From Metabacillus sp. FJAT-52054 (GTDB taxonomy: Bacteria > Bacillota > Bacilli > Bacillales > Bacillaceae): 64,000 nt of DNA. Made by a program: the position numbers and the translations under genes. Positions within the stretch are counted from its first letter, which is position 1. Every line of letters begins with the position of its first letter. This document shows, one piece after another, positions 3,679 through 58,237 of this stretch. A model generated the notes under the pieces. It was not told where the DNA came from and ran no database searches. It saw nothing but the letters and a program-made list of their open reading frames with translations. The stretch is taken from positions 1,302,001 through 1,366,000 of the forward strand of contig NZ_CP147407.1 in assembly GCF_037201815.1 (NCBI RefSeq), read 5' to 3'.

Positions 3679-3860
3679 GCTAGTGAAAACGCCTATTATG
3701 AAAAATAATTTAGATGATCGTCATAAAGACCTGGGGAATGGCTGCAGAGCCTGAGGGGCGGATTGTTGGCGCTGGTGGATAATTGCTGGTGCATGGATGG
3801 GGATGGAGGGTGATGTTGAGTGGGGAGATAAGGGGAATGGTGTAGCACAAGGTTTAGGTT

Positions 3861-3967
3861 TGTCAGATAAAGTAGTCAGACAAACTTTGAAATTATGTAT
3901 TTGTCAGACAAAATAGTCAGACAAACGCGGAATCCAAGTATTTGTAAGACAAAATAGTCAGACAAAC
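3861..3967. repeat. Three paired GTCAGACAAA boxes at 41-bp period
   Basis: In the cotZ-cotY gap, GTCAGA-type boxes start at 3862, 3875, 3903, 3916, 3944 and 3957. Each pair is 13 bp apart and pairs recur exactly every 41 bp. The typical unit is TTTGTCAGACAAAATAGTC followed by AGACAAAC. The third pair has GTAAGA for its first box. The DNA between 3616 and 3860 otherwise holds only the cotZ promoter and G-rich sequence without a convincing gene. Confidence 0.8.
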
Positions 3968-7279: not shown

Positions 7280-7534
7280 ATGGATAATAAATTCTTTAAA
7301 AATATTGAAAAGAAAACAGGCGTAAACATGAATGAAATTCTCGCTCTCGCCAATTCCCTTCAAAATGCAAACTTCCGTGATGAAACAACAGTCCGAAACG
7401 TGATCCGCAAGGTTGCCCAAATTGCGAACAAAAAAGTACCGAAAGAAACAGAAGACAAAATCGTCAACTCGATTGTGAATGGAAAAGAAAAGCTCGACTT
7501 TAATACAATCTCCAAAATGATTAATAAGAAATAA
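7280..7534 (+). CDS. spoVIF: Stage VI sporulation protein F (SpoVIF)
   Basis: An 84-residue cytoplasmic protein needed in B. subtilis (YjcC) for normal assembly of GerE-dependent coat layers. It begins MDNKFFKNIEKKTGVNMNEI and contains LANSLQNANFRDETTVRNVI, KKVPKETEDKIVNSIVNG and ISKMINKK, the typical SpoVIF pattern. TAAGGAGG precedes the ATG. A terminator follows. The gene closes the coat cluster, and its sigma-K-like promoter fits its late role. Confidence 0.92.
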   Translation: MDNKFFKNIEKKTGVNMNEILALANSLQNANFRDETTVRNVIRKVAQIANKKVPKETEDKIVNSIVNGKEKLDFNTISKMINKK

Positions 7535-7578
7535 ACAAAAGCCTTTCGTCCGAATGGATGAGAGGCTTTTGTTTTGAT
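7535..7578 (+). terminator. Terminator after spoVIF
   Basis: ACAAAAGCCT pairs with AGGCTTTTGT and is followed by TTTTG. Confidence 0.8.
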
Positions 7579-7620: not shown

Positions 7621-8522
7621 GAGTGTCCGATATAAGAGAAAGAAAGTCCGATATCGAGCGTGGAGTGTCCGATAAAAGGTGCTGGGAGTCCGATATGAAA
7701 GGGAATGTCCGATAAATGCAGCGGAGTGTCTGATATAAGGGAATGAAAGTCCGATATCGAGCGTGGAGAGTCCGATAAAAGGTGCTGGGAGTCCGATAAG
7801 AAAAGGAATGTCCGATAAATGCAGTGGAGTGTCCGATATAAGGGAATGAAAGTCCGATATCGAGCGTGGAGAGTCCGATAAAAGGTGGTGGGAGTCCGAT
7901 ATGAAAAGGAATGTCCTACAAATGCAGCGGAGTGTCCGATATAAGAGAATGAAAGTCCGATATCGAGCGTGGAGAGTCCGATAAAAGGTTCTGGGAGTCC
8001 GATATGAAAAGGAATGTCCGATAAATGCAGCGGAGTGTCCGATATAAGAGAAAGAAAGTCCGATATCGAGCGTGGAGAGTCCGATAAAAGGTTCTGGGAG
8101 TCCGATATGAAAAGGAATGTCCGATAAATGCAGCGGAGTGTCCGATATAAGGGAATGAAAGTCCGATATCGAGCGTGGAGAGTCCGATAAAAGGTGGTGG
8201 GAGTCCGATATGAAAAGGAATGTCCTATAAATGCAGCGGAGTGTCCGATATAAGGGAATGAAAGTCCGATATCGAGCGTGGAGAGTCCGATAAAAGGTTC
8301 TGGGAGTCCGATAAGAAAGGGAATGTCCGATAAATGCAGCGGAGTGTCCGATATAAGAGAATGAAAGTCCGATATCGAGCGTGGAGAGTCCGATAAAAGG
8401 TTCTGGGAGTCCGATAAGAAAGGGAATGTCCGATAAATGCAGCGGAGTGTCCGATATAAGGGAATGAAAGTCCGATATAAGAGAAAGAAAGTCCGATATC
8501 GAGCGTGGAGAGTCCGATACAT
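7621..8522. repeat. Tandem array of 103-bp units made of GTCCGATA boxes
   Basis: Eight units recur at exactly 103 bp: the landmark ATATCGAGCG starts at 7651, 7754, 7857, 7960, 8063, 8166, 8269 and 8372. A ninth copy at 8496 is 124 bp on, owing to one extra box. Each unit has five GTCCGATA-type boxes spaced 21, 21, 21, 19 and 21 bp, each followed by its own linker (such as TCGAGCGTGGA or AAATGCAGCGG). Boxes vary slightly (GTCTGATA, GTCCTACA, GTCCTATA). About 44 boxes lie between convergent transcription units. Long open frames across it are repeat artefacts. From 8523 to 8600 nothing else is seen. Confidence 0.95.
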
Positions 8523-8601: not shown

Positions 8602-8638
8602 CAAAAAAGAAGCAGAGCAACCGTACCACTCTGCTTCT
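8602..8638 (-). terminator. Terminator after small membrane protein gene
   Basis: AGAAGCAGAG (8608-8617) pairs with CTCTGCTTCT (8629-8638), followed on the minus strand by TTTTTTG. Confidence 0.8.
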
Positions 8639-8642
8639 CTAG

Positions 8643-8828
8643 CTATATACTGACCGCAAACGCGTAAAGCAGGTAAACGACCAGAGCAACCGCAAGGACA
8701 ATTTTGGATACATCCAGTACTCTTTTGCTTGGAAACGTGAGATTTAAAAGATAAAAGAAGCCAACAGCCCAAATCCCGTTTTGGAAAAAAGTGAAGAAGA
8801 TGTTCCGCAGCACTGTGAGTGATTCCAA
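8643..8828 (-). CDS. Small two-helix membrane protein
   Basis: A 61-residue protein with two hydrophobic segments (NIFFTFFQNGIWAVGFFYLL and VSKIVLAVALVVYLLYAF). I chose the TTG at 8828, eight bases after AAAGGAG; an ATG at 8885 in the same frame lacks a good site. It lies between the repeat array and the yjcD helicase gene, with its own terminator. I do not recognise the family. Confidence 0.6.
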   Translation of the reverse strand: MESLTVLRNIFFTFFQNGIWAVGFFYLLNLTFPSKRVLDVSKIVLAVALVVYLLYAFAVSI

Positions 8829-8932
8829 TTTCCACAACTCCTTTCCGCAATGTACTATATATGTATGGCTGTTTCTTTTATTCATGCGTACTATTTAATG
8901 GGGACATGGTTATTTGATTTGTTGACATCTCC

Positions 8933-14574: not shown

Positions 14575-14776
14575 ATCTAGCTCCGGCGCCTAGCCCCTCG
14601 AGGTCATATGCCACTCAACCTCCGGGCCCGCAGGATGCGGGTCAGTTCCCACGTCTTTCCCACGGCTGATTGTCTTATGCTTGTCGGGGGCCGGCAGGAG
14701 GCCGGTCAGTTCTGCGTTGCGGCAGGACGCCGCGCATTTAGCAGAACATCCTTCCTTGAGGAGCCTCCGCTTTTGG
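14575..14776. repeat. REP-like palindromic element, long form
   Basis: Begins TCTAGCTCCGGCGCCTAGCC and ends GAGCCTCCGCTTTTGG. The flanks CTCGAGGTCATA, GCCACTCAACC, CGGCTGATTGTCTTATGC and TTGTCGGGG are shared with the second copy at 14812. This copy carries extra GC-rich hairpins. It is a fold-back, non-coding element; related sequences are, from memory, common in bacilli. The 60-residue open frame inside is an artefact. Confidence 0.8.
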
Positions 14777-15080: not shown

Positions 15081-15243
15081 TTCTTATCCAGAGAGGTGGA
15101 GGGACTGGCCCTGCGAAACCTCAGCAACCGGCAGAACGCTCTAGGCGTGCCAAGGTGCTAAATCCAGCAAGCGAGCTTGGGAGATGAGAAGAAGAACTGT
15201 TAAGCGACAAGCCTTCTTCTTATTTTAGGGGAAGGCTTTTTTG
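15081..15243 (+). ncRNA. SAM-I (S-box) riboswitch with terminator, metI-metC
   Basis: P1 is formed by TTCTTATC (15081-15088) and GATGAGAA (15183-15190). Conserved blocks are AGAGGTGGAGGGACTGGCCC, TGCGAAACCTCAGCAACC and AAGGTGCTAAATCC. The terminator is AAGCCTTC (15209-15216) with GAAGGCTT (15231-15238) and a T run. The 3' side of P1 plus GAAGAAG can instead pair with CTTCTTCTTAT in the terminator, the expected antiterminator. SAM should therefore shut off metI-metC. Confidence 0.95.
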
Positions 15244-27746: not shown

Positions 27747-27906
27747 AAAGCCTCTTTCCGGATAAGAAAGAGGCTTTGCACACAAAGGGATCCCTCTCTC
27801 TTATCTGTCAGCGTAAACGCTGCAAGAATTAGCACCGTATTGACCATGGTCAACCGGTTGCCGGGCTTCATAGGGCTTGTCCCTCCGCCTGCTCTTGATA
27901 AAAGAG
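27747..27906 (-). ncRNA. SAM-I (S-box) riboswitch with terminator, upstream of M14 gene
   Basis: On the minus strand the aptamer runs 27906-27796: P1 CTCTTTTATC pairs with GATAAGAGAG over 10 bp (one GU). Conserved blocks are GGCGGAGGGACAAGCCC, GAAGCCCGGCAACCGG and ACGGTGCTAATTC. The terminator is AAAGCCTCTTTC with GAAAGAGGCTTT (27758-27747 and 27777-27766) and a short T run. CTCTTTCTTATC of the terminator can alternatively pair with the 3' P1 strand GATAAGAGAGAG, a textbook S-box switch. The gene start is 32 bases beyond. Confidence 0.93.
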
Positions 27907-29926: not shown

Positions 29927-30054
29927 GTGCACTGACCCCCGCTTCTCTAACGCACTAAATCTCCGTCCCCGATCACTGCAAGCTCTTGTTCTCCGTATCT
30001 TTAGCGAAGTCTTCCTTTGTCCCCCGATGCGGTGCTGTGTTGGGGGTCAGTGCA
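29927..30054. repeat. Mobile-element-like repeat with terminal inverted ends, copy 3
   Basis: Begins GTGCACTGACCCCC and ends GGGGGTCAGTGCA, perfect inverted ends. It contains AACGCACTAAATCTCCGTCC, TTTAGCGAAGTCTTCC and CCCCCGATGCGGTGCTGTG. It is over 90% identical to copy 4 by eye and of the same family as the dimer at 17687-17940. Confidence 0.8.
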
Positions 30055-30055
30055 A

Positions 30056-30182
30056 TGCACTGACCCCCATTTCTCTACCGCACTAAATCTCCGTCCCCGA
30101 TCACTGCCAGCTCTTGCCCTCCGTATCTTTAGCGAAGTCTTCCTCTGTCCCCCGATACGGTGCTGTGTTGGGGGTCAGTGCA
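30056..30182. repeat. Mobile-element-like repeat with terminal inverted ends, copy 4
   Basis: Begins TGCACTGACCCCC and ends GGGGGTCAGTGCA. It is a direct repeat of copy 3 at 128-bp period, with one A (30055) between the copies. Short open frames on both strands here are artefacts. From 30183 to 30228 nothing else is seen. Confidence 0.8.
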
Positions 30183-30228
30183 AACCAAGAGTTTTCAGAC
30201 AGGGATATTAGACCAGGCGCCACCCCGC

Positions 30229-57946: not shown

Positions 57947-58049
57947 ATTGATGGAGGAAGATGGATTTTGCAAAGCTGCCTCGTAATTTAAAATTGGATT
58001 GGTTTTGCCAAAAGCTGAAGAGGTGTGTGTTTATAAAGAACGGGCAAAA

Positions 58050-58127
58050 TTTTGTCGATAGCGGGCAGATTTGTGTCGATTACGGGCAAATTCACGTCGA
58101 TAACGGGATATCACGTGTCGATTACAG
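58050..58127. repeat. Small phased array of GTCGAT boxes at 21-bp period
   Basis: GTCGAT occurs at 58054, 58075, 58096 and 58117, exactly 21 bp apart. Linkers are AGCGGGCAGATTTGT, TACGGGCAAATTCAC and AACGGGATATCACGT, so the unit is GTCGAT(A/T)nCGGGnAnAT. An open frame on the minus strand across it is an artefact (Arg/Tyr repeats). Confidence 0.8.
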
Positions 58128-58237
58128 CCAACTCGACTAAATGCGACAATATTATCCTGTAATAATCCTTTAATCTGCTGCTCAGCAGGACAATTAGCAA
58201 AGTCCATAATTTTGAAAGAAGTTATGGTAATAGCCAA

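Follow-up and report, generated by a model that had tools for sequence, protein, structure and literature searches.

Helically phased box arrays in Metabacillus sp. FJAT-52054 and other Bacillales as candidate sites for a predicted DNA-binding protein

Known repeat systems and the array in the window

In plasmid iterons, short direct repeats recur at intervals of about two helical turns, usually with a few of them per site. REP elements are palindromic, and REP/BIME elements are dispersed and extragenic. MIRU-VNTR loci are dispersed intergenic tandem units of variable copy number, and we know of no inner box at helical spacing within them. In ParMRC systems, a cognate protein recognizes the direct repeats that make up parC, such as the 20-bp repeats of pSK41, and both the repeats and the specificity of ParR are reported to vary between families (PMC9426499, PMC5016525). 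Another report describes TAACTGA repeats in Beggiatoaceae as short direct repeats that are dispersed through intergenic DNA in groups of two to six, with longer arrays of up to 43 in some taxa, a patchy distribution across taxa and no known reader; in the best-studied genome they lie mostly right upstream of start codons and are taken to act post-transcriptionally (PMC4679880). In the full text of open, non-subscription PMC papers, we noticed no description of an element of the kind reported here.

We analyzed a stretch of 64,000 nucleotides (the window) from Metabacillus sp. FJAT-52054 (NZ_CP147407.1, positions 1,302,001 to 1,366,000), in which a sequence-only reading had pointed out an array of about 44 boxes. 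A box search allowing up to two mismatches recovered 44 boxes on the forward strand at 7625-8519, of which 41 are exact copies of GTCCGATA and three read GTCTGATA, GTCCTACA and GTCCTATA. The boxes follow the step pattern originally described (21, 21, 21, 19 and 21 bp, repeating) and form eight tandem 103-bp units of five boxes each, which we mapped to 7621-8478 (+) by TRF and a unit consensus (period 103, 8.3 copies, 95% match in a TRF run over the window). The one extra box, adding 21 bp, was also confirmed, near the 3′ end of the array. Outside the array, exact GTCCGATA is absent from the forward strand of the window and occurs once on the reverse strand; base composition predicts about 0.9 occurrences per strand in 64 kb.

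The array lies between convergent genes near spore genes, as had been noted. On its left, spoVIF (7280-7534, +; Pfam PF14069, NCBIfam NF052662) is followed by an intrinsic terminator (7537-7576, +; sequence reading and terminator scan), whose T tract lies 55 bp ahead of the first box. On its right, ORF lists and family searches show an 80-aa ORF without a family match (8643-8885, −), and a terminator-like hairpin of this converging ORF, read by eye, faces inward (8603-8638, −). CotZ and two CotX genes lie close to the array, and family searches place a UvrD/PcrA-like helicase among its neighbors as well. We agree with the initial reading that the array makes no coding sense, because 103 is not divisible by 3 and the frame therefore changes with each unit. 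That reading also found no unique spacers, and we reject a CRISPR array because the same spacers return in every 103-bp unit. A search of the window at Rfam gathering thresholds gave four matches, none at the array; the window contains a Bacillaceae-1 RNA (14691-14757, −) and SAM riboswitches (15081-15190, +; 27798-27904, −). Two other repeats lie in the window: intergenic GTCAGACAAA boxes at 3859-3967, with steps alternating between 13 and 28 bp (a 41-bp period), and a 128-bp unit in two copies with a 93% match at 29928-30183.

Like iterons, this array and its relatives described below are direct repeats spaced 19-22 bp. Unlike iterons, they occupy several to dozens of chromosomal sites with boxes that vary between genomes, and family searches of the window saw no initiator gene beside its array. 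They share with parC direct repeats with a cognate reader, which for the arrays is a prediction. They differ in that parC lies upstream of parM, whereas the arrays lie at many sites, and family searches of the window saw neither parM nor parR beside the array there. The TAACTGA repeats are likewise dispersed, patchy and without a known reader, but the Bacillales arrays differ from them in keeping a helical spacing of 21 bp and in lying at gene ends. REP/BIME elements are also dispersed and extragenic, whereas the arrays are direct repeats in which folding and permutation tests revealed no conserved stem-loop structure.

Related arrays in the host chromosome and across Bacillales

Our two-box search of the host's own genome returned 51 forward and 53 reverse pairs against none in the reversed control, and 57 forward and 73 reverse pairs with a wider gap. 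Nine arrays were found in the host chromosome (L117-L124 and the window array), a count from which weaker arrays could have escaped in a two-box search. All nine share a plan of five boxes per 103 bp, with four 21-bp steps and one 19-bp step, and their spacer sequences differ. They contain 8, 11, 10, 8, 16, 11, 8, 5 and 1 units, partial units aside. Unit lengths other than 103 bp correspond to whole boxes (82, 122, 124 and 166 bp), except for two single-base cases (102 and 104 bp), and isolated odd steps (22, 25, 39 and 41 bp) occur in L117, L121 and L123. When we scanned periods of 14-45 bp in array loci, which were chosen for their arrays, only period 21 kept a 7-mer over four copies.

Box steps in the host species comprise 213 of 21 bp, 40 of 19 bp and two others. 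The mean spacing of 20.6 bp given in the sequence-only reading thus describes the host species but not the arrays elsewhere, where the step is exactly 21 bp in 342 of 353 cases counted over five other groups (146/150, 105/110, 31/31, 49/51 and 11/11). The 103-bp unit with its single 19-bp step most plausibly goes back to one ancestral module of five boxes, which spread and was then amplified. The sequence-only reading had counted ten helical turns per unit and took the spacing to be selected or fixed by the copying mechanism; on our view the sameness of the unit in nine arrays would reflect descent and not selection for ten exact turns.

As a dispersed intergenic tandem unit present in 1 to 16 copies at nine loci, the host arrays have the properties of a MIRU-type VNTR, and they resemble MIRU-VNTR loci in unit length, intergenic dispersal and variable copy number. 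A neutral minisatellite would explain such arrays by slippage or unequal exchange copying a unit within gaps that tolerate it, with box conservation reflecting descent. Copy number does move mostly by whole boxes, and the arrays are located where insertions harm little. Among 60 genomes of the host and its relatives, only the host and one relative (G001, one pair) gave a match. Inspected by eye, G001 has one decayed five-box unit at the window locus, one unit at L119 and about two at L117, as against 8-11 units in the host, also as a minisatellite would predict. The loci corresponding to L118, L120 and L124 have no array in G001, counterparts of L121 and L123 were not found within the stretches fetched, and the part of L122 that was read has no boxes. 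Wherever this sister genome could be compared, its arrays are either decayed or short, or missing altogether, and we conclude that the element is dispensable.

A three-box scan of species genomes identified at least 107 loci, at least 54 of them in Bacillales. Among the matches listed, Bacillales carriers are Sporosarcina koreensis, Fredinandcohnia onubensis, Bacillus sp. REN16, Bacillus sp. SJS, Ornithinibacillus caprae, Ureibacillus and Bacillus sp. FJAT-29790; we take Bacillus sp. SJS for a near relative of the host because its arrays match the host's. The commonest step is 21 bp in 53 of the 54 Bacillales loci among the matches listed, with a mean spacer identity of 0.46. The 53 non-Bacillales loci among these matches were left out of our counts: 40 have a different commonest step, and the 13 whose commonest step is 21 bp look like plain tandem repeats, since their spacers are 0.77-1.0 identical. 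Tables for the five other groups also omit L093 (Bacillus sp. FJAT-29790), L021 and five SJS loci, although these are Bacillales. Pair counts in eight Bacillales genomes range from 4 to 221, with none in the control. Across the whole order, a 21-bp pair occurs at least once in 10 of 397 genomes (the host included), and five genomes reach six pairs or more; the distribution of the box family is patchy.

The elements are short except in the host species and in Ornithinibacillus, where arrays reach 20-32 boxes. Among runs with at least three boxes, the number is exactly five in 25 of 37 cases in Sporosarcina and exactly six in 16 of 22 in Fredinandcohnia, and all seven runs in REN16 have five or six. 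In three loci from Fredinandcohnia and REN16 (L035, L096 and L034), terminator hairpins that are nearly identical to one another (CCTTCCGG...CCGGAAGG) alternate with the modules, and in L035 the box sets and hairpin recur at ~187 bp.

A set of five or six boxes repeated directly every 21 bp recalls iterons and parC, and the modules could be remnants or nonautonomous forms of mobile or iteron-like elements, derived from plasmid-type initiator or partition sites and either spread as passengers or serving as decoys for the proteins of such sites. Modules are indeed both dispersed and clustered, as in Sporosarcina koreensis, where 19 runs of at least four exact boxes lie on one strand within 44 kb (NZ_LN651337.1, ~1463-1507 kb), and a leader with a conserved dyad precedes 28 of 32 Sporosarcina modules. 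We consider this origin quite unlikely. Blastn with 520 bp of the array matched none of 72,556 plasmid records and none of 50,697 phage records, and L124, inspected by eye, shows no clean insertion or target duplication. The host's two small contigs lack such an array, their best 21-bp four-copy score being 7 of 21 columns (over the first 20,000 of 22,250 positions in the larger contig).

Box conservation, genomic position and a predicted reader

Within the nine host arrays, 75 of 3120 box cells (2.4%) and 450 of 4914 spacer cells (9.2%) depart from the consensus; array copies are not independent, and common descent of the units makes a nominal p-value for this difference too small. We also examined interior positions picked solely by exact boxes 21 bp to either side. 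In five other groups (97, 63, 23, 23 and 6 positions), these positions read GTCCGATA at a frequency of at least 0.90 per letter, apart from one letter at 0.87. Relaxation of the box at letters 2 and 3 is confined to the host species.

Four pairs of orthologous single modules differ in 3 of 192 box cells and 71 of 260 spacer cells, with module length unchanged. The pairs L048/L097 and L077/L115, with 0.91 and 0.92 identity in the better flank, differ at 1/48 and 2/48 box cells and at 7/65 and 10/65 spacer cells, respectively. For L058/L037 and L032/L057 (0.68 and 0.76), no box cell of 48 differs, as against 25/65 and 29/65 spacer cells. We restricted the evidence to these four pairs because a larger total (15/544 versus 237/721) mixes orthologues with look-alikes that share a terminator and reuses modules. 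In six comparisons with equal box counts, three of them at one locus, gaps relative to substitutions number 4/123 in modules and 50/282 in flanks. Most modules were detected through their boxes, which favors conserved ones; this bias is avoided at a locus found through its flank, at the G001 loci and, partly, in the register test.

The flank-found locus was compared across eight genomes, and was located through a neighboring gene instead of the boxes. It holds five boxes in G403, four in G422 and six in G264, one each in G286 and G327, and none in view in G166; the G366 contig stops before the site. In the eighth genome, G385, six boxes at exactly 21 bp read GTCCCAAA, GTCCCATA, GTCCCATA, GTCCTAAA, GTCCCGTA and GTCCTATA, with letter 5 changed in all six. 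Across six G385 loci, letter 5 is changed in 24 of 30 boxes and the other letters in 8 of 210 cells, a count biased in that five of the loci were located through box pairs (L130 through GTCCGATA). Pairs of GTCCYATA number seven in G385 and none in nine other genomes, and in a genome search neither G286 nor G327 showed a 21-bp pair of exact GTCCGATA boxes. The spacers of the G385 loci look unrelated, so the change is not explained by copying from one locus to another. The same-letter change suggests a trans-acting reader, with word and reader changing together.

These comparisons bear on the neutral minisatellite, which seems rather unlikely to us. Single, unamplified orthologous modules keep their boxes and lose their spacers, and several genera share the 21-bp plan while their spacers have diverged, in contrast to the plain repeats seen in other phyla. 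The G385 change, at one letter in loci with unrelated spacers, also speaks against it.

The arrays sit in intergenic gaps, and four of the nine host arrays (window, L117, L121 and L123) lie between convergent genes, by strand counts that are rough in that our ORF picker also takes antisense ORFs and missed spoVIF. No common theme emerged among neighboring genes in the ORF lists, where names were searched in the window and the other eight loci were represented by ORF starts. Using a simple home-made rule, we found inward terminator-like hairpins in 17 of 57 5′ flanks and 26 of 57 3′ flanks from six groups, outward ones in 8/57 and 13/57, and 4 in 285 shuffled 5′ flanks, where shuffling preserved base composition only.

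Since rough ORF picking often places the upstream gene on the same strand, read-through transcripts might present UCCGAUA boxes to an RNA-binding protein or fold into hairpins. Four modules from REN16, 22V3 and Sporosarcina fold better than shuffled sequences (z -3.1, -2.6, -2.1 and -1.7), which we put down in part to box-box pairing; the G385 letter change would weaken such pairing. Four host-species units, in contrast, show no clear excess folding (z -0.6, 0.1, 1.1 and 1.7). When spacers were permuted, folding was no weaker in five of the six groups; for REN16, with 7 modules, z was -3.6 in one test out of three. Hairpins between neighboring spacers, suggested by module L037, found no support from permutation in those five groups and were rejected. 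In flexible RNA, nothing obvious would call for a spacing fixed at 21, and several arrays lie past terminators. We therefore give an RNA-level function very little credence. A role as a topological sink, with gyrase or a general wrapping protein preferring a phased pattern at gene ends and no dedicated reader, would fit the two-turn phasing and the gene-end, partly convergent positions. It appears highly improbable, as neither the exactness of the 8-bp core nor the change of one letter across loci is expected of a general enzyme.

In the host chromosome, dnaA is located at the start of the contig, and the GC skew changes sign between 1995 and 2040 kb. Strand agrees with replication direction for eight of the nine arrays of the window's family, family A (p 0.04), and for four of the eight listed loci of the sister families B and C described below. 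In Sporosarcina, modules use either strand within one arm, in a stretch from 1277 to 1463 kb over which sampled skew has one sign. On the B/C and Sporosarcina results, a strictly polar segregation signal of the KOPS/SRS type finds no clear support.

The kept box, two-turn spacing, free spacers, preferred box number and same-letter change together point to a trans-acting protein that would read one face of the DNA. We think it fairly probable that the window array is an amplified member of a class of dispersed 8-bp-box arrays that bind such a predicted protein. The sequence-only reading had suggested a binding array for a nucleoid or segregation protein; conserved boxes and spacing, diverging spacers and the G385 change uphold the binding part, whereas a nucleoid or segregation protein is not established. 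The basic module has five or six boxes (about 92-113 bp), repeated directly every two helical turns. From the observed anatomy, distribution, constraint and same-letter change, we infer that a sequence-specific and probably oligomeric protein would assemble on it head to tail along one helix face. Such assembly would explain why box and spacing are kept while spacers are free. A shift in the protein's preference would shift boxes at many loci, and its loss would let the arrays collapse. Because modules sit in intergenic gaps, often with inward terminators beside them, the complex would probably act as a fixed nucleoprotein block, either an insulator or roadblock at the ends of transcription units or a nucleoid anchor.

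We found no candidate for the reader protein. The respelled genome G385 and the single-box genomes G286 and G327 turn the hunt for it into a direct comparison of gene sets. If our proposal is correct, a conspicuous non-coding share of several spore-formers marks places for a chromosome-binding protein still to be discovered, with a specificity that shifts fast enough to watch in present-day species, and a natural helically phased binding array becomes available to chromosome engineering. More tentatively, satellite-like Bacillales arrays and a fast-evolving cognate protein may parallel, in bacteria, the centromeric satellites of eukaryotes and the protein that reads them; the conserved object would then be a phased nucleoprotein unit of five to six sites, with the word turning over between species.

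Sister box families

Two further families with 21-bp boxes, B (TGTCGATWACGGGCA) and C (about ATACGGGCCAACT), occur in the host genus and were found in 3 of 60 genomes searched (the host, G001 and G002). In G002, a C box followed by B boxes keeps one common register. The window itself contains a family B array, identified by TRF and pattern search at 58040-58137 (+), with five 21-bp units of a box about GTCGATWACGGGCA, of which the last two are degenerate; it terminates in GTCGATTACAGCCAACTCGAC. A cap-like end unit with inverted halves (GTCGA-N-TCGAC) is present in 4 of 13 family B arrays (including window 58117-58137, L236 and L228), and a near version in a few others. At the L119 locus, an A array lies beside a C array in both the host and G001. 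By eye, G002 has a C array beside a ~41-bp repeat at this locus, G003 a related palindromic repeat and G004 none, and the counterpart in G006, from another genus (L205, following the orthologue of the gene next to L119), consists of tandem ~52-bp units with inverted GGAATCA/TGATTCC halves.

Among viral contigs, three have a box triplet, one of them coding in look and two with 21-bp repeats; a search with family B gave none. The 21-bp repeats of L195 and L197, IMG/VR contigs with no host assigned, read ATGTCCGATAGCCTGCGAGAT and are seemingly non-coding. The reversed control of the sister-family searches is not independent, as shifted CGGGC patterns match the same arrays. This control also returned ten 21-bp CGGGCA triplets in G080, a genome of the same order, and a B-like family may therefore be present in another family of that order.
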